Assembly: GCA_947631865.1 (NCBI GenBank)
Contig: CANRNF010000030.1
Span: 1 to 33,655, forward strand
From: an uncultured Oscillospiraceae bacterium
GTDB taxonomy: Bacteria > Bacillota > Clostridia > Oscillospirales > Oscillospiraceae
Direction: 5' to 3'
DNA length: 33,655 nucleotides
Shown: positions 8,294-29,236 of the stretch, in pieces
Layout of the letters: the number at the start of each line of letters is the position of its first letter
Numbering within the stretch: position 1 is the stretch's first letter
Position numbers and translations under genes: made by a program
Notes under the pieces: generated by a model
Database searches by the model: none
Seen by the model: only the letters and a program-made list of their open reading frames with translations
What the model was told of the DNA's origin: nothing

Positions 8294-9562
8294 TCAATGC
8301 CAAACGAACCAGCAGAACAGGTAGCCTGTCAGCACGGCGGCCAGGGTGAAGGGCACGCCGATGCGCATGAAGTCTTTGGTGCTGACTTCGTAATCCTGCC
8401 GGCGCAGGATGCCGATGGCGGTGATATTGGCGGAGGCGCCGATGGGGGTGATGTTGCCGCCCAGGGTGGCGCCGGTGAGAAGGCCAAAATACAAAAGGAT
8501 GGGCGAGCAGCCCATGGTGGCGGCGATGCCGGTGACGACAGGGAGCATGGTGGCCACGTAGGGGATGTTGTCCACGAAGGCGGAGATGAGCACCGAGCCC
8601 CAGACGATGATGGTGTACATCACGAACAGGTTGGACCCGCCCAGCCGGACGAACAGGTCCGCGATGGCGTCGATGACGCCGCCCCGGTTGATGCCCTCGA
8701 TGACGATGAACAGGCCCGCCAGCAGAAGGAGCGTCTGGTAGTCGATCTCCAAAAACGCCGCCTTCACATTATGCCAGCTCTTCTCCCGCAGGCGGGAGTG
8801 GATGGCGCCCACCAGAAACACGCTGCAGCAGATGATGCCGTTGGTGATGGCGGGCTTGCCGGGGATGAAGCTGGCACAGATGAGAAGCACCACCGTGCCC
8901 ACCAGCAGCCAGGTGGGGAAGTAGTTGGTCACCTCCGTCTTGTCGGGGATGGTGACCGGCTCCCGCTGGTCCCGGAACAGCCACAGGATGATGGGCACAG
9001 TCATGAGCGCGCCCAGTTCCACGGCCCAGAAGATGGAGAACTTCCCATCCATGAAGAAGAAGTCCAGAAAGTCCATGTCGGCGTAGCCGCCCAGCATGAT
9101 GGAGGTGGTGTCGCCCACCAGGGTGGCCGCGCCCTGCAGGTTGGAGCTCACAGCGATGGAGATCAGAAGCGGCACGGGGCTTACGCCCAGCTTCGCCGCG
9201 ATGGCGAGGCCCACCGGCGCCAGCATCAGCACCGTGGCCACGTTGTCCACGAAGGCGCTCACAACGCCGGCGAACAGGCTCATGGCCACCGCCACCCACA
9301 TGACGTTGGGCGTCTTGGTCAGCAGGACCTCCGCCATGCGGTTGGGCATCTTCGACTCGATGAACAGGCTCACCGTGCCCATGGTGCCGGCCAGCATCAT
9401 CAGCACGTTCCAATCCACCGCCCCGGCCAACTCCGACAGGGGCACGAAGCCCAGGACCACGTACAGCACAGCGCTGGACAAGGCCACCCAGGGCCGGTAC
9501 TTGGGCAGGGCGATCATCAGGCAGTAGGTGAGGATGAATAGGACCAGAGCGGTGACAGACAT
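8294..9562 (-). CDS. SLC13/ArsB/NhaD-superfamily transporter under manganese riboswitch control
   Basis: 422 residues, almost entirely hydrophobic with about 10-12 transmembrane segments. Two inverted halves each carry the hallmark AFVDN (SAFVDNVATV and SAFVDNIPYV), each followed by a conserved small-residue stretch (SSNLQGAATLVGD; TGATLGGNITPIG). This is the pattern of the ion transporter superfamily (ArsB, NhaD, SLC13, P-protein). Known members move anions, dicarboxylates, arsenite or sodium/protons. The start at 9562 is chosen because AAGGAGG lies 6 nt upstream; an upstream ATG at 9670 would translate the riboswitch. The leader at 9591-9732 matches a yybP-ykoY Mn2+ aptamer, so export of Mn2+ or of a Mn-linked solute is an inference. 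Annotation from sequence alone would stop at 'SLC13 family permease'. Confidence 0.88.
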   Translation of the reverse strand: MSVTALVLFILTYCLMIALPKYRPWVALSSAVLYVVLGFVPLSELAGAVDWNVLMMLAGTMGTVSLFIESKMPNRMAEVLLTKTPNVMWVAVAMSLFAGVVSAFVDNVATVLMLAPVGLAIAAKLGVSPVPLLISIAVSSNLQGAATLVGDTTSIMLGGYADMDFLDFFFMDGKFSIFWAVELGALMTVPIILWLFRDQREPVTIPDKTEVTNYFPTWLLVGTVVLLICASFIPGKPAITNGIICCSVFLVGAIHSRLREKSWHNVKAAFLEIDYQTLLLLAGLFIVIEGINRGGVIDAIADLFVRLGGSNLFVMYTIIVWGSVLISAFVDNIPYVATMLPVVTGIAATMGCSPILLYFGLLTGATLGGNITPIGASANITAIGILRRQDYEVSTKDFMRIGVPFTLAAVLTGYLFCWFVWH

Positions 9563-9590
9563 GGCGTTCCTCCTTCTTACATCAGGCATC

Positions 9591-9630
9591 AAAAAAAGAC
9601 TTTTACCGCGGGAAAGGCGCGGTAAAAGTC
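9591..9630 (-). terminator. Intrinsic terminator in the transporter leader (riboswitch expression platform)
   Basis: Read on the minus strand: a perfect 13-bp stem (GACTTTTACCGCG, 9618-9630, pairing with 9598-9610), a 7-nt loop, then seven T (9591-9597). The 5' arm contains the CTTTTAC that also closes P1 of the aptamer, so aptamer folding and terminator folding are mutually exclusive. It lies about 30 nt before the start codon. Confidence 0.9.
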
Positions 9631-9732
9631 TCGTTTCAGATGCAATATCTGCGGCGGCCCGGATCATCATGATGATCGTACTGACGAGACGCCGGACGCG
9701 GGCGGCTGCCCGCGCAAACTACTCCCTCTTAC
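9622..9732 (-). promoter_or_regulatory. yybP-ykoY (manganese-sensing) riboswitch aptamer
   Basis: Seen on the minus strand, in order: GTAAGAG (P1 5' strand), then GGAGTAG, a GC hairpin (GCGGGC/GCCCGC), CGTCAGTACG, an inner palindromic hairpin (GATCATC/GATGATC) closed by CGGCG/CGCCG, a hairpin CAGAT/ATCTG, then ACGAGACTTTTACC whose CTTTTAC pairs back to GTAAGAG. GGAGTAG, the CGTCA loop and the GAGAC-pyrimidine-ACC end are the conserved parts of the yybP-ykoY class, which binds Mn2+. Because the P1 3' strand is shared with the terminator, ligand binding should release transcription (an ON switch), as for known manganese exporters. Identification is by remembered consensus; a covariance-model search would settle it. 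Confidence 0.82.
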
Positions 9733-9740
9733 AGAACAAT

Positions 9741-9770
9741 ATTATAGTCCACCAGGGGCGGATATGTCAA
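9741..9770 (-). promoter_or_regulatory. Sigma-A promoter of the riboswitch-transporter transcript
   Basis: On the minus strand a perfect TTGACA (9765-9770), an 18-nt spacer and a perfect TATAAT (9741-9746). Transcription would start at about 9734, immediately before the aptamer P1 strand. Confidence 0.88.
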
Positions 9771-9815
9771 GAAGGCGTCATTTTTCAGCTGGAAAAGATC
9801 GTTAAAGAAAATTTC

Positions 9816-9844
9816 TTGACATCTTCTTTATATCTGCATATACT
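9816..9844 (+). promoter_or_regulatory. Promoter of the toxin-antitoxin operon with overlapping palindrome
   Basis: TTGACA (9816-9821), a 17-nt spacer, TATACT (9839-9844). A small inverted repeat, TATAT-CTGC-ATATA (9829-9842), overlaps the -10. It is a candidate site for autorepression by the antitoxin, which is usual for RelB/DinJ-type systems. The promoter is divergent from that of the transporter. Confidence 0.8.
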
Positions 9845-9870
9845 GAGAGTGAAAAAAGGGGGTGTAAAGC

Positions 9871-10137
9871 ATGGCCCAGACAGTGAATGTGAATTTTAAG
9901 CTGGACGCAGACGTAAAAAAGAGCATGGAGCAGGCCTGCGCCGATATGGGGCTGACTATGAGCGCCGCTTTCACCGTGTTTGCCAAAAAGGTCGGCCGGG
10001 AAAAGCGGATACCCTTTGAGATATCTGCCGATCCGTTCTTTTCCGAGAGCAATATGGCCCATCTGCGCCGGGGCGCGGCCGCGCTCAACGCCGGTAAGGG
10101 TGTGGAACATGAGCCCATCGAGGACGACAGCGAATGA
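9871..10137 (+). CDS. RelB/DinJ-family antitoxin
   Basis: 88 residues. The N-terminal part (TVNVNFKLDADVKKSMEQ followed by ADMGLTMSAAFTVFAKK) is the ribbon-helix-helix typical of RelB/DinJ antitoxins: a beta strand and two helices for DNA binding. The C-terminal part is charged and would wrap the toxin. The gene overlaps the toxin gene by four bases (ATGA), so the two are translationally coupled, with the antitoxin made first as expected. GGGGGTG precedes the ATG by about 6 nt. Its role is to neutralise the YoeB-like RNase encoded next and, with it, repress the operon promoter at 9816-9844. Confidence 0.93.
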   Translation: MAQTVNVNFKLDADVKKSMEQACADMGLTMSAAFTVFAKKVGREKRIPFEISADPFFSESNMAHLRRGAAALNAGKGVEHEPIEDDSE

Positions 10138-10394
10138 AGAAGGTTTGGTTCGACGAGGCCTGGGACGATTATCTGTACTGGCTGACCCAGGACAGGAAAA
10201 CGCTCAGACGCATCAACGCCCTGATCCGAGACATAGAGCGGGGAAGCTTTGACGGCATCGGCAGTCCCGAACCGCTGAAGGGGGATTTGAGCGGCTTCTG
10301 GAGCCGGCGAATCGACCAGACGAACCGGCTCGTCTACCGCGTCAGCGGCGGGGTGCTGGAGATCCTGTCCTGCCGGGGACATTATGATGATTGA
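10134..10394 (+). CDS. yoeB: YoeB-family mRNA interferase toxin
   Basis: 86 residues, closely matching the length and pattern of YoeB: WDDYLYW near the N-terminus, PEPLKG, LSGFWSRRID, NRLVYRV, and a terminal CRGHY. The catalytic positions known from Escherichia coli YoeB are all in place: Glu46, Arg65, His83 and Tyr84. YoeB binds the ribosomal A site and cuts mRNA there; the toxin is held inactive by its antitoxin. It looks intact. A terminator hairpin starts at the last base of the stop codon, so the operon has two genes only. Confidence 0.95.
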   Translation: MKKVWFDEAWDDYLYWLTQDRKTLRRINALIRDIERGSFDGIGSPEPLKGDLSGFWSRRIDQTNRLVYRVSGGVLEILSCRGHYDD

Positions 10395-13304: not shown

Positions 13305-13391
13305 GCCGGCGTGGTGGAATTGGCAGACACCAGGGACTTAAAATCCCTTGTCCCTCGGGACGTGCGGGTTCAAGCCCCGCCGCCGGTACCA
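13305..13391 (+). tRNA. tRNA-Leu (anticodon UAA)
   Basis: 87 nt including an encoded CCA. The acceptor stem GCCGGCG pairs with CGCCGGT; the G1-U72 end pair is also present in E. coli tRNA-Leu(UAA). The D arm is GTGGAATTGGCAGAC. The anticodon stem AGGGA/TCCCT carries loop CTTAAAA, so the anticodon TAA is at 13339-13341. The long class II variable arm (GTCCC-TC-GGGAC) is typical of leucine, and the T arm is GCGGG-TTCAAGC-CCCGC. It reads UUA/UUG leucine codons. Confidence 0.97.
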
Positions 13392-13547: not shown

Positions 13548-14657
13548 TTATTGTTGGGCGCCCTTTTTCAGGTTGCAGTCACGGCAGAGCATTTGGCAGT
13601 TATCCGGCACGGTCTTGCCGCCCCGGACCCAGGGGGTGATGTGGTCGGCGTGCATCTGGTCAAACTCAAAGGCCTGCCCGCAGATGGCGCACTTATGCCC
13701 CTGACGCTCATAGGCGGCCAGGGCGTCCCGGCGGTCAAACGCACGGATGGACAGCTTCCGCACATCGCCGGTCAGCAGATATTCGTATATACCAGATTTG
13801 CGGGTCACGTCCTCGTCTCCCATCAGGCGCTGGACCTCTGCCTCCAGCGTCTGGGGGTCCAGATCTGTCCGCTTGCCGTGCTCGTTGAACAGCAGCCCCC
13901 AGGGCAGGCCCTTCATCTCCCGGCGGGTCTTGGGGAAGATAGCCTGCACCCAGTCGATGACGGAGCGGAAGTAATTCCAAAGCTGCACGGCGCTGGGGTC
14001 GTCCTGATGCCGGGCCATGTATTGCTCGATAGCCTCCCCCTCGGCGCTGGCCGCCCAGAGGATGGCCGTCTCCAGATACTCCTGGCGGATGGAAGAGCCT
14101 TTTAAGTAGTCCCCGGCCAGGGTGCCGGCGGCGCAGCCGGTCTTGGAAAAATACTTCTTCGCGCTGGAGGTCCAGCTGCCGGCATAGACGGCGTTTCGAA
14201 GCTCCTGGTCGGTGAGCTGCTCCCCGGCGATGTTGATGATGCGGAACCAGTCCAGCTTCTCGCTGTCCGTGCCGTCACAGACGTACACGAAAAGAGGGTA
14301 GTTCATGATCTGCAGCTTTATGTCGAGGGGCAGATTATAGAAGTACTTGTCGTCCACAGAGAAGGAGCCGTCCACGTACTCGCACAGGGAGATGGTGCGC
14401 TGCTGGCCGTCCAGGACCTCGAACCCATCGGAGCCGTCCTCCTTTTTTACCTTGCACCAGTAGATGACGTTCAGGGGCAGGCCCTTCATCACTGTGCGGA
14501 TGACCTCGTCCCGCTGGGCGTCCTTGTAGACGAATTCCCGCTGGTACCGGGGGCGGATGTCCAGCCGGCCGTCATAGCCGACAACGCCCTCCTCCGCGTC
14601 GTTGAAATAGCCCTGGTACACTTGGCCGACGGTGACACGTAATTCATCTATCTCCAT
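13548..14657 (-). CDS. DUF262 protein with C-terminal HNH nuclease domain
   Basis: 369 residues. The N-terminal half is a DUF262/GmrS-type ParB-like domain: [10 protein letters not shown] at ~36-45 and the nucleotide-site signature VLDGQQRT at ~81-88. The C-terminus (~310-365) is an HNH nuclease: a CAICG zinc-knuckle pair, then [12 protein letters not shown] with the catalytic histidine region, then CRDCNLKKG. In GmrSD, BrxU and SspE, DUF262 couples NTP hydrolysis to nuclease attack on foreign or modified DNA. Here both parts are in one chain. The ATG directly follows the methylase stop codon (TAA-ATG), with GAAGGAGG just inside the methylase gene, so the two are one operon. That pairing suggests a restriction partner for the methylase, which is inference. 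Confidence 0.88.
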
Positions 14658-15830
14658 TTATGTTTCCTCCTTCGGCGGTTCCGGGTGTTTATTGCGGATG
14701 AGGATGCGGGAATAGGGGAGCTTGCCAGGCAGCCCATTGTCATTTATCCTCAATGAGTTCCCTGCTTTTCGTTCTGTGACGGTATATGGCGTTGACCATA
14801 TGCACACGCCGTCCTTGAGATATTGAATTTCATCACCAACGACTTTATGTACCATAGTTTTGGGAACATCGGTTGCCATGCCGATTATCTCAAACTGTTC
14901 TGGGTTATATTGGTCTAAAAAGGTATCAGGCACACCTATCATGCCGGTATAGTCGCAAGGGATATTTGCCGTTTGAGAAACATCAATACCGTCATAATTG
15001 TAGTAGCGTGGGTAGTCCTCCGGTCGATAGCGCTTGACCAATATCAACTCTTCATGGCGCTTCTTGATATCGAGATTGGTCAGCCAAATGGATGGGCTTC
15101 TTGTCATGTATTCGCCATTATCAATGATATAGCCAGACGCCCTATTGCTTTCTATTAGCTGCTCAATATAGCTTTTAGGGGACATGAAATGCAGGTCAGT
15201 TGATATAGGGGTCATACCCACCCAAACCTTGTTTTCTTTGATAAGTGGAAATATTTCTTTGTAATGAAGCGCACTTTTGGGGCCAATGATCACAAACTTC
15301 TTCTCACGCTCCATCAGCGTGGCCACGTACTCCCGGAACAAAGAAAAAGGCGGGTTGGTGACAACGATGTCCGCCTCGTCCAGCAGGGCCAGGCACTCCA
15401 GGGAGCGGAAGTCGCCGTCGCCCTCCAGCTCGGTCAGTTCATTCTCCCCCGACTTGAACAGTTCTGCCACGTCCAGCATATCTACGCTGCCGTCCCCGGT
15501 CGTGTCGTAGACCCGGGTCACCACCGCCTTATAGGGGCGGTTTTTTGTTTCCTCCCCGCCGGTCACATCGGACAGGGACAGACGCCGGTCGGCGATGGGG
15601 GAGCCGGCATAGCAGGTGGCGATCAGCTTCTTCAGTCCCAGCCGGTTGAAATTTAAAACAAAGTACTTAAAAAAACTGCTCTCGAAGGGGTCGTCGCAGT
15701 TACAGAAAACGGTCTTGCCTTGGAAGTGCTTTTTATAATGGCGCAGTTCCTTCTCGATATCCGTGAGCTGGGTATAGAATTCATCCTTTCGGGCTTTGGC
15801 CGCCGCGTTGAGGTTTGCATTCCCTGCCAT
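14658..15830 (-). CDS. EcoRI-family adenine-specific DNA methyltransferase
   Basis: 390 residues. The N-terminal part (NAAAKARKDEFYTQLTDIEKEL, then FCNCDDPFESSFFKYF) and the catalytic motif IVVTNPPFSLF at ~155-165 match the EcoRI modification methylase family, which transfers methyl from SAM to adenine N6. The start at 15830 follows GGAGGTG by 5 nt; an upstream in-frame ATG (15857) falls within the promoter. The DNA encoding the C-terminal half (about 14,740-15,340) is clearly richer in A+T than both the N-terminal half and the flanking genes, and the change lies just beyond the NPPF motif. This suggests a mosaic gene with an imported specificity-determining half. The promoter at 15858-15886 carries an operator, and the regulator gene is divergent. 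Confidence 0.88.
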   Translation of the reverse strand: MAGNANLNAAAKARKDEFYTQLTDIEKELRHYKKHFQGKTVFCNCDDPFESSFFKYFVLNFNRLGLKKLIATCYAGSPIADRRLSLSDVTGGEETKNRPYKAVVTRVYDTTGDGSVDMLDVAELFKSGENELTELEGDGDFRSLECLALLDEADIVVTNPPFSLFREYVATLMEREKKFVIIGPKSALHYKEIFPLIKENKVWVGMTPISTDLHFMSPKSYIEQLIESNRASGYIIDNGEYMTRSPSIWLTNLDIKKRHEELILVKRYRPEDYPRYYNYDGIDVSQTANIPCDYTGMIGVPDTFLDQYNPEQFEIIGMATDVPKTMVHKVVGDEIQYLKDGVCIWSTPYTVTERKAGNSLRINDNGLPGKLPYSRILIRNKHPEPPKEET

Positions 15831-15857
15831 GACCGCACCTCCACAAATGATGGCCAC

Positions 15858-27048: not shown

Positions 27049-27683
27049 AAAGAGAAGCTGACAGAGAATACAAGGTGGAGGTGGGCGGCATCACCTACGG
27101 CATGGACCGGATCGAGAGCGGATCGCTCAGCCAGGCGCTGTTCGACGCGCCGGGAGTGGGCAACACCGCCTGCGCCGCGTTCACCATGACCTTCCTGCCC
27201 GCTGAGGCACCGCCCCGGATGGGGGAGGTACGGCCCTGGATACGGGACGCGGGGGAGGAGGAATGGACGCCTCTGGGGGTGTTCTGGATAGACCAGCGCT
27301 CTGAGCAGGACGGGCGGATGACCGTCACCTGCTATGACGGGATGCTCAAAGCGGAGCGGATCTGGAAGCCCGCAGGCGAGGACATCTTCCCCATGACCAT
27401 GGAGCTGGCGGCCGGAGACATCGCCGCTGCCATGGGCACCGCGCTGGACAGCCGGTGCGCCTTTAACGGCGGCTACACGGTGGACTACCCGGCGGAACAG
27501 TACACCATGCGGGAGGTGCTGGGCTACATCGCCGCGGCCAACGGCGGCAACTGGCTGGTGACGGCGAAGGGGGAACTGCTGCTTATCCCCCTGTTCGGCT
27601 CCATGCCGGCGGAGACCAGCTATCTCATCGAGGAAGAGGAGGGCGCGGCCATCACCTTCGGCGGCACGCGGATATTGGTATGA
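27045..27683 (+). CDS. Tail hub/tip protein (Tal-like)
   Basis: 212 residues. KVEVGGITYGMDRIESGSLSQALFDAPGVGNTACAAFTMTFL, then IRDAGEEEWTPLGVFWIDQRSEQDGRMTVTCYDGMLKAERIW and a LysM-like-site segment (YTMREVLGYIAAANGGNWLV) are typical of Firmicutes phage tail-tip proteins that sit under the distal tail ring. ATGA overlaps with the genes on both sides (27045-27048; 27680-27683). No hydrolase motif is seen. Confidence 0.78.
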   Translation: MKREADREYKVEVGGITYGMDRIESGSLSQALFDAPGVGNTACAAFTMTFLPAEAPPRMGEVRPWIRDAGEEEWTPLGVFWIDQRSEQDGRMTVTCYDGMLKAERIWKPAGEDIFPMTMELAAGDIAAAMGTALDSRCAFNGGYTVDYPAEQYTMREVLGYIAAANGGNWLVTAKGELLLIPLFGSMPAETSYLIEEEEGAAITFGGTRILV

Positions 27684-29236
27684 ACAATAAGTACTATATT
27701 GGCCGGCAGGTGGGCCGTTTTGAGCGCAGCGGCGACATCCGGGCGGTGGACGGGGTGGTCCTGGTAGTGGACGAGGAGCACGAGTTCCGGGCGGGGGACA
27801 TGGAGGGAAACGTGCTGGAGATCCCATGTCCCTACGGGACCCAGGCCATGGCGGACGGACTGCTCACGCAGCTGCGGGGCCGCAGCTACACCGGCTACGC
27901 GGCGGAGAACGCGGTGACGGACCCGGCAGCGGAGCTGGGGGACGGAGTGACGGTTGGTGGGATATACTCCCTGCTGGCCAGCAGGGAGGTGAGCTTCGGG
28001 TCCGGGCACCTGAGCCGGATCGGAGCCCCCGCGGAGAGCGACATGGACCACGAGTACGCCGCGGCGGACCCCTATACCCGGGAGATAGAGAGGAAGCTGG
28101 CGGGGGCGCGCAGCTACATCGACAAGAAGTCGGACGAGATACGCCTGGGCGTGGAGGGCGTGCAGGGGGACGTGGCGGAGCTGAAGGTGTCGGTGGGGAG
28201 CATATCCGGCACGGTCACGAGCCTGAACGGCGACATGTCCACCCTGAAGCAGACAGCCACGTCTCTGACCGGCCGCATCCAAAGCGCCGAGGGGGATATC
28301 ACGGACCTGGAGGCGACGGCAAGGGGGCTCTCCAGCTCGGTCAGCGGCCTGGACGGACGGGTCAGCAAGATAGAGCAGAGCGCGGAGAGGATCACCCTGA
28401 GCGTGACCGGCTCCCTGGGCGGGAAGGCGTCCATCAGCCTGTCCAACGGCAGCAGCGGCACCATTGACCTTTCAGATGTAAGAACTGCGTTTGCCAACGA
28501 TAGGACCAATGTGACGATCCAGGGCGGTACGCTCACATTCAACGGCGGCGGTATAGCATTCAACAGCGGCAGTACATTTACGGTCAGTAGCACTAATCTT
28601 ACGGTAACCTCCGGCGGCCTTATCACGGCCTTCGACGCAAATTTAAATCAATGTCATCTTGGACGGCGTGATGTCGGTTCAAATCAATTTCCTGCTCCTG
28701 CGGCATTTTGTGATGGGAATGTGTTTCTGCAAAAAATGAGCAGCACGTCCTCTTGGAGCCTTTACGGGACGGTTACTGGGACTGACTTGTGCATAGCGAC
28801 CGTGAGCACACAAAGTCAATTCTTTAGCGGTTCACAGTGTATCGTCATTGGATGGAACGATAATATCTTCCTTTATTGTGGCACTGACAACGAGGTGCGG
28901 GCGAACAAATCCGTCCATTCCACGTCTGACCGTGACCAAAAGCGGGATATAGAGGATATAGACGAGCGATACCTTGCTATCATGGACAACATCTCGCCTG
29001 TCCGGTTCAAGTACGTGGGACAGAGCGAACCGGCGGCGTTTGCGCTTGGCTACATCGCCCAGGATGTGGAGGCGGCGCTTGGAAAGGCCGGGCTCACGCG
29101 GACCGACTTTGCCGGGCTGTCCGGAGAGGACGGCACGGGGTGTATGGCGCTGTCTTACGACGACTTTATCCCCCTGCTGCATTTGAAGATCAGGACGCTG
29201 GAGGCGCGCATCGACAGATTGGAGGGAAGGATATGA
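27680..29236 (+). CDS. Tail fibre/receptor-binding protein with S74 intramolecular chaperone
   Basis: 518 residues. The N-terminal ~130 residues continue the hub pattern (QVGRFERSGDIRAVDGVVLVVDEEHEF; ENAVTDPAAELGDGVTVGG). Residues ~140-260 hold repeated coiled-coil or triple-helix-like segments (LKVSVGSISGTVTSLNGDMSTLKQ). Residues ~265-415 are beta-rich and coded by A+T-richer DNA (about 28,480-28,960). The C-terminus (~415-518) is an S74 peptidase/chaperone: STSDRDQKRDIEDI, ALGYIAQDVEAAL, YDDFIPLLHLKIRTLEARI. S74 domains trimerise fibres and then cut themselves off at a serine. The A+T-rich segment is probably a swapped receptor-binding domain. Confidence 0.88.
   Translation: MNNKYYIGRQVGRFERSGDIRAVDGVVLVVDEEHEFRAGDMEGNVLEIPCPYGTQAMADGLLTQLRGRSYTGYAAENAVTDPAAELGDGVTVGGIYSLLASREVSFGSGHLSRIGAPAESDMDHEYAAADPYTREIERKLAGARSYIDKKSDEIRLGVEGVQGDVAELKVSVGSISGTVTSLNGDMSTLKQTATSLTGRIQSAEGDITDLEATARGLSSSVSGLDGRVSKIEQSAERITLSVTGSLGGKASISLSNGSSGTIDLSDVRTAFANDRTNVTIQGGTLTFNGGGIAFNSGSTFTVSSTNLTVTSGGLITAFDANLNQCHLGRRDVGSNQFPAPAAFCDGNVFLQKMSSTSSWSLYGTVTGTDLCIATVSTQSQFFSGSQCIVIGWNDNIFLYCGTDNEVRANKSVHSTSDRDQKRDIEDIDERYLAIMDNISPVRFKYVGQSEPAAFALGYIAQDVEAALGKAGLTRTDFAGLSGEDGTGCMALSYDDFIPLLHLKIRTLEARIDRLEGRI

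Follow-up and report, generated by a model that had tools for sequence, protein, structure and literature searches.

What does an RNA of the manganese-sensing kind control when the gene behind it encodes a carrier of the ArsB/SLC13 type? The question is raised by a stretch of 33,655 nucleotides (nt) from an uncultured Oscillospiraceae bacterium (contig CANRNF010000030.1 of assembly GCA_947631865.1; the whole stretch is called the window here), on whose minus strand a promoter, a structured leader, a terminator and a transporter gene follow one another. With a probability of about 0.72, we read this locus as a yybP-ykoY (Mn2+) riboswitch of the transcriptional ON type that drives a probable secondary Mn2+ exporter with the ArsB/SLC13 fold. 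The computed results behind this reading are a conserved RNA fold, homology to riboswitches of E. coli, an overlap between switch helix and terminator, and a recurrent pairing of the RNA with SLC13 genes. The features concerned are these:

9741..9770, minus strand: sigma-70-type promoter, TTGACA-18-TATAAT, 12/12 hexamer positions matching
9620..9733, minus strand: predicted aptamer domain, a four-way junction of the yybP-ykoY/Mn2+ type, scored 117.9 and 78.3 bits by two covariance models, R1 and R2, whose training sets include this leader itself
9726..9732, minus strand: 5' strand of P1 (the switch helix), GUAAGAG, pairing with 9628-9622
9718..9726, minus strand: GGGAGUAGU, the last P1 base and the 5' strand of L1
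9696..9715, minus strand: P2 hairpin
9652..9694, minus strand: P3.1 - L3 - P3.2 arm
9678..9684, minus strand: L3 bulge, UCAGUAC, 7 nt, with A 9682 aligned to the Mn2+-contacting adenosine
9637..9651, minus strand: P4 hairpin
9596..9632, minus strand: predicted intrinsic terminator, 15 pairs and a T tail, with the P1 3' strand (9628-9622) in its 5' arm
9569..9575, minus strand: Shine-Dalgarno sequence AAGGAGG, from sequence reading
8294..9562, minus strand: SLC13/ArsB/CitMHS-like (IT superfamily) transporter of 422 amino acids, ATG at 9562

The leader and its conserved structure

The leader spans 9733-9596 on the minus strand. Upstream of it, TTGACA (9770-9765) and TATAAT (9746-9741) are both consensus, as a first-pass annotation of this DNA had said in calling the promoter perfect. 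They lie 18 nt apart, and two consensus hexamers with a 17- or 18-nt spacer precede 22 of 24 leaders. The aptamer-like motifs listed by that annotation (GGGAGTAG, CGTCAGTACG and ACGAGACTTTTACC) are likewise all present in the minus-strand leader. The fold of the 176-nt leader has a z-score of -3.94, and none of 200 shuffled sequences was equally stable.

We set the structure (P1, P2, P3.1, the 7-nt L3 bulge, P3.2 and P4) by hand from the sequence and compared it with two alignments. The first, A2, contains 22 leaders of the same genus, with the divergent L024 and L028 excluded; the second, A3, contains 88 aligned matches of R1 in 84 distinct rows. In A2, standard pairs fill 94.6% of the pair cells, and two-sided changes occur in 15 of the 36 pairs (shuffled mean 9.3). 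In A3, 92.2% are paired, 34 of the 36 pairs change on both sides, and the covariation score is 0.608 vs 0.179 for shuffled alignments; these pair counts lean toward the model, since the alignment had been built to fit that structure. All P1 cells are paired in the 22 A2 sequences, where five of the seven pairs are invariant and none changes on both sides; six of seven do so in the wider A3. Two-sided changes are seen in 4/8 P2 pairs and 9/16 pairs of the P3.1-L3-P3.2 arm in A2, rising to 8/8 and 15/16 in A3, and P4 is paired in 100% of A2 cells. Covariation in both alignments bears out the four-way junction P1-P4.

The joining elements are also conserved. In the A3 columns of L1, GAGUA is found in 84/84 rows, the two G residues before it in 84 and 83, and the G after it in 78. 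The window leader has the L1 core GGGAGUAG with its 3' partner AGAC, which is invariant in all 84 rows, and it has one P3.1 mismatch, T 9689 opposite C 9657. The L3 adenosine is kept in 83 of the 84 distinct rows. This is a genuine leader with a strongly conserved structure.

Class assignment and the predicted switch

The first-pass annotation placed the leader in the yybP-ykoY class, Rfam family RF00080, and here the Rfam searches went against it. At gathering thresholds the window gave a tRNA only and no RF00080; relaxing the limit to E 10 brought no RF00080 match in 9400-9900 or at any of seven loci that carry this leader. Of 20 loci whose homologous leaders stand before SLC13, Na+/Ca2+ exchanger, OadB, P-type ATPase, MntP, TerC and other genes, RF00080 found none at E up to 0.1. 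Across 60 relatives it gave no match above its cut-off and three at E 0.001. Three mntP leaders from the same genus likewise receive 26.7, 26.4 and 20.8 bits from this model, below the cut-off of 45, so we take the miss as a limit of sensitivity; the gathering score that the window leader fails to reach is a rule of detection and no trait of the RNA.

We then turned to the purpose-built models. R1 was made from 22 SLC13-associated leaders only and matched 67 of 391 genomes of the class at E 0.01 and 31 of the 60 relatives at E 0.1. It found one of the three mntP leaders (L032, 25.9 bits) and missed the other two, which again speaks against the assignment. R2 was made from the leaders of the window class in A3, and the E. 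coli and three mntP leaders were absent from its training. R2 found all three mntP leaders that RF00080 scores below its cut-off, as well as the E. coli mntP leader at 42.0 bits (E 3.1e-9) and the alx leader at 35.0 bits (E 2.8e-7). Both E. coli leaders are reported to be Mn-sensing (PMC9603457). At E 0.01, 43 of the 60 relatives have an R2 match, and at E 0.001, 201 of 398 genomes of the phylum. These recoveries support the first-pass identification, and by model homology the leader is a member of the known yybP-ykoY class.

An ordinary attenuator or terminator that resembles a Mn2+ aptamer by chance would explain the lack of an RF00080 match. This is very improbable: covariation in A2 and A3 excludes a chance attenuator (for A3, with the structure-fitted alignment in mind), R2 recovers the E. 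coli members, and the idea is refuted as far as the structure is concerned. Nor did cmscan, run over 501 nt at E up to 10, point to another metal riboswitch or RNA family; it gave two chance matches only, both on the other strand.

Manganese is the likely ligand of the leader. In the L. lactis and X. oryzae riboswitches, N7 of an L3 adenosine touches Mn2+ (PMC6754395). L3 reads UCAGUAC in the window, UCAAUUC in L. lactis and ACAUACU in X. oryzae, and since the latter two are numbered UCA41AUUC and ACA48UACU (PMC6754395), A 9682 appears to correspond to this invariant Mn2+-contacting adenosine, A41 in L. lactis and A48 in X. oryzae.

The first-pass annotation had described a 13-bp terminator whose 5' arm is also the 3' strand of P1. 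The hairpin is there (9632-9596, with a T tail), although it has 15 pairs, not 13. A scan found 2 terminator-like sites in 2 kb vs 1.6 in shuffled sequence, so the pattern by itself is weak evidence. The overlap was borne out across the set: all seven bases of the P1 3' strand (CUUUUAC, 9628-9622 in the window) lie within the predicted terminator in 24 of 24 leaders. P1 and the terminator should therefore be mutually exclusive. In L. lactis, Mn2+ stabilizes helix P1.1, whose 3' segment otherwise joins the terminator, and the window P1 is the counterpart of P1.1 (PMC11087558). By homology to the studied members, at low Mn2+ CUUUUAC would pair into the terminator and transcription would stop. 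At high Mn2+, with Mg2+, the ion would clamp L1 against L3; this docking would let the P1 switch helix retain CUUUUAC, no terminator would form, and the transporter would be made. An ArsB-like antiport would then lower cytosolic Mn2+, a step suggested by the company of the regulon and by the fold. Because of the terminator anatomy, the leader very probably acts as an ON switch, as the class has been called elsewhere (PMC9190785).

The transporter and its pairing with the leader

The window protein matches IT-superfamily structures over its full length. The nearest fold is ArsB (10tp), reported to be an H+-coupled efflux pump, at 16% identity. The ArsB proton-site residue Asp148 aligns with D151 of the window protein. 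Of the metalloid pocket, Asn111 and Asn337 are retained (N107 and N332), whereas Ser380 is replaced by A376, so the pocket is incomplete; Asp112 corresponds to V108, and D106 and D331 stand where ArsB has Ala110 and Asn336. The NCBIfam ArsB models gave 49.5, 44.7 and 41.2 bits against cut-offs of 457, 760 and 415. For the DASS/SLC13 carriers (VcINDY, NaCT, NaS1), TIGR00785 gave 74.7 bits against 198.6, and the SNT anion motif of DASS carriers (PMC13381914) is absent, both hairpin tips reading DN (Asp-Asn). Going by the curated cut-offs, the protein is neither DASS nor ArsB. Residues D106, N107, D331 and N332 are invariant in alignment A6, partly by construction because the 80 loci of the second set below were retrieved with patterns that include these positions; they are also kept in 9/9 A4 proteins, which were not chosen by pattern.

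How regularly is such a protein found behind this RNA? A protein search of the 60 relatives gave a match in 38, and 30 loci were drawn from it. In this first set the leader is present upstream in 24 of the 29 homologues with readable upstream sequence and absent from five (L025, L026, L027, L029 and L030). The 30th locus, L017, is truncated where its contig ends, and its genome (G011) has a leader beside the first 69 codons on another contig. A second set consisted of the best 80 loci (of at least 80) from 579 relatives, obtained by scanning named genomes with the protein alignment; several of the 80 loci share contigs with other sets of relatives (L252 is G059, L253 is G050). R2 gave 27 matches in 26 of these best 80 loci, all on the gene strand. 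The RNA is the immediate leader in 23 of the 80, ending 47-241 nt before the SLC13 gene. In L206 and L252 a Na/Pi gene stands between the RNA and SLC13, which comes second; L252 and L211 each continue with a P-type ATPase that has an RNA of its own.

The first-pass annotation had looked to close homologues for a shared leader, and the second set divides on this point: 23 of the best 80 have the leader, and 52 lack it with at least 250 nt of upstream sequence present, which counts against the reading (two more have short upstream sequence). The SLC13 family, it follows, does not always need such control. Overlooked leaders among the 52 were rejected as a cause, as a search for GGAGTA[GA] to 400 nt upstream found one site, in L217, 25 nt before the gene and resembling a ribosome site. 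We mapped the leader label on a protein tree of 79 members (78 of the 80 and the window) and counted 15 changes vs 20.8 for shuffled labels, at least 11 of them forced by well-supported branches. The pairing is clustered, yet it has been gained or lost many times. It is seen across Oscillospiraceae, Lachnospiraceae and one Erysipelotrichaceae member, and we take its repeated gain or loss as favoring a metal-linked function rather than one accident that was then inherited.

The other genes behind this RNA bear on what the transporter may carry. Among 85 R1 matches (those outside the training group and the window's own, with the G011 SLC13 leader excluded), the downstream genes are 25 Na+/Ca2+ exchangers, 21 P-type ATPases, 16 OadB-like proteins, 5 SLC13, 4 GDT1, 4 PsiE-like, 2 MntP, 1 TerC, 1 Na/Pi, 4 others and 2 that we take to be SPFH proteins. 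Targets were grouped by blastp and the representatives of the main groups named by Pfam; one GDT1 was named by motif only. The OadB-like proteins (PF03977; Na+-pump beta subunit) stand directly behind Mn-type leaders in these 16 of 85 cases (L060, L066, L067, L070, L074 and others). In four genomes of the same genus (L093-L096), a leader closely related to that of the window is followed by a PsiE-like membrane protein, which in L093 scores 23.4 bits for PsiE against a cut-off of 23.9. Operons of a Na/Pi-cotransporter and SLC13 behind a Mn-type leader, at 2871-6268 of L174 (G059) and in L206, raise the possibility of metal-phosphate handling.

From this company and the fold, we consider export of Mn2+ somewhat the better account of the transporter's function. 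A doubtful alternative keeps the Mn2+-sensing switch and has the transporter move a partner (Na+/H+, a carboxylate, a phosphate or a metal complex) for the sake of Mn2+ tolerance. The fold family, judged from titles, carries dicarboxylates, citrate, sulfate, phosphate and arsenite; Mn-type leaders also front OadB and Na/Pi proteins; and at two loci SLC13 stands behind a Na/Pi gene in one apparent operon. However, the replacement of SNT by Asp-Asn at both hairpin tips would suit a cation or H+ site, and families of cation exporters are the most frequent among the other targets.

L3 subtypes and the weighing of the ligand

A second alternative concerns the ligand. We compared the L3 core in 203 distinct R2 matches (from A3, A5 and A7), a sample that favors the best-scoring matches. 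The core is ACA in 11/11 MntP and 23/24 GDT1 leaders, and UCA in 21/21 OadB, 30/31 SLC13 and 32/38 CaCA leaders. P-type ATPases (22 UCA, 19 ACA, 1 other) and TerC (6 UCA, 2 ACA) are mixed. The small groups are PsiE-like (3 UCA), Na/Pi (2 UCA, 1 ACA) and SPFH (1 UCA), and 21 matches without a target group divide into 10 UCA, 10 ACA and 1 other. ACA:UCA is 34:0 for MntP and GDT1 vs 6:88 for OadB, CaCA, SLC13, Na/Pi and PsiE (exact test, p = 3e-25, post hoc and ignoring kinship, with three "other" rows dropped and at least seven SLC13 rows from the window's genus). The split is also seen within four of 19 genomes or entries: G031 (SLC13, MntP), G762 (CaCA, MntP), and G817 and G692 (OadB, GDT1), the last two of one genus.

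The window leader is of the UCA subtype, and UCA cores mostly accompany genes other than MntP and GDT1. As its subtype is less tied to these two, the idea that the ligand has shifted or is dual deserves serious weighing. On that view UCA members would respond physiologically to Ca2+, or to Mn2+ and Ca2+ together, and the regulon of Na+/Ca2+ exchangers, Ca-type ATPases, OadB and SLC13 would handle Ca2+ or a general divalent load. The subtype does track target family, with the expected targets in the four genomes that hold both; some yybP variants likely sense other divalents (PMC7266159); and the S. pneumoniae member is reported to bind Ca2+ (PMC9495176). On the other hand, the L. lactis yoaB riboswitch, with its UCA core, binds Mn2+ and responds to it (PMC6754395, PMC11087558). 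In E. coli, mntP is ACA and alx is UCA, and the alx product is annotated as a Mn2+ exporter. P-type ATPases are divided almost evenly, and L252 (G059) has an ACA core before its Na/Pi-SLC13 operon and UCA before its P-type ATPase, while the L206 operon has UCA. Given also the post hoc nature of the test, we regard a shifted ligand as unlikely. A broader version is similarly speculative, in which one L3 base would divide the Mn2+ riboswitch family into two working subtypes, ACA for MntP and GDT1 and UCA for SLC13, OadB, Na+/Ca2+ exchangers and part of the P-type ATPases; UCA would differ in specificity or threshold, or have a dual (Mn2+/Ca2+) one, with the ArsB-like SLC13 protein in a second, Na+/H+-coupled divalent-cation efflux regulon.

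Further points weigh against a Mn2+ riboswitch with a Mn2+ exporter. The S. pneumoniae mgtA member binds Ca2+ tighter than Mn2+, Mn2+ being the stronger activator of transcription (PMC9495176), and the class has also been described as "OFF" switches that bind Co2+, Cd2+ and Ni2+ as well (PMC11477304). The source genome (87% complete, 150 contigs) has two mntP genes, so another candidate for Mn2+ export exists, and neither has a detectable leader of this kind. With two mntP genes present, we excluded the idea that the SLC13 gene substitutes for a missing mntP. A separate observation concerns mntP leaders elsewhere: on the opposite strand beside them lies a molybdenum/tungsten riboswitch (minus strand, 1186-1330 of L031 and 1184-1328 of L033), at 60.1 and 66.5 bits against a cut-off of 36.

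If the manganese-exporter reading is true, the ArsB/SLC13-type protein, a candidate for a new manganese-handling transporter, would represent a further family of bacterial Mn2+ exporters, hitherto named by superfamily only (citrate transporter, ArsB-like). It would also mean that RF00080 under-calls Mn2+ riboswitches here: none of 60 relatives reaches its cut-off and 3 have a match at E 0.001, vs 43 by R2 at the different threshold of E 0.01. The RNA class itself is known; the SLC13 target family and the L3 split are the interesting parts, and pairs of leaders from one genome make the suggestion of divalent-sensing variants (PMC7266159) directly testable. We found no statement on SLC13 targets or on a UCA/ACA split in a literature search that drew on excerpts and did not include Dambach 2015, Price 2015 and Martin 2019.

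Neighboring genes and known systems

Other features of the window were noted. A RelB antitoxin and YoeB-like toxin pair (9871-10394, plus strand) is divergent from the leader, and a promoter-like site lies at 9816-9844 on the plus strand. An EcoRI-type adenine methylase beside a GmrSD_N/HNH protein (13548-15857, minus strand) forms a restriction-like pair. Next to it, tRNA-Leu (taa) at 13305-13391 (plus strand) overlaps the nominal 5' end of the opposite-strand mnmG frame; this locus is a possible insertion site. A Peptidase_S74 protein with a sub-threshold Gp58 match (27680-29236, plus strand) is likely a phage tail gene.

Of known systems, the magnetosome protein MamN resembles the transporter: NF040989 matches 44 of 44 A6 members at E 0.001 or better, while the window protein scores 63.3 bits against a cut-off of 500. 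On the RNA side, Rfam RF02617 (SSRC10) matches a related leader on the gene strand; the 32.3 bits fall short of its cut-off of 56, and the window leader itself gave no match. The match was given by an Rfam search at:

2778-2899 of L024 and 1470-1591 of L058, minus strand: RF02617 match; L058 is the same place as L024, with the SLC13 frame intact

The RF02617 consensus bears similar L1 and L3 signatures, although the family is filed as a Streptococcus small RNA. SSRC10 precedes a "putative calcium transporter" (PMC3675131), and it is probably a terminated Mn riboswitch leader.

The closest counterparts are the known yybP-ykoY members. The window leader differs from them in falling below Rfam detection and in fronting an SLC13/ArsB-like gene. 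With L. lactis yoaB and E. coli mntP and alx it shares the four-way junction, the L1 core GGGAGUAG with AGAC, and a 7-nt L3 with the invariant A. With L. lactis yoaB it further shares the UCA subtype and a switch helix held in common with an intrinsic terminator.

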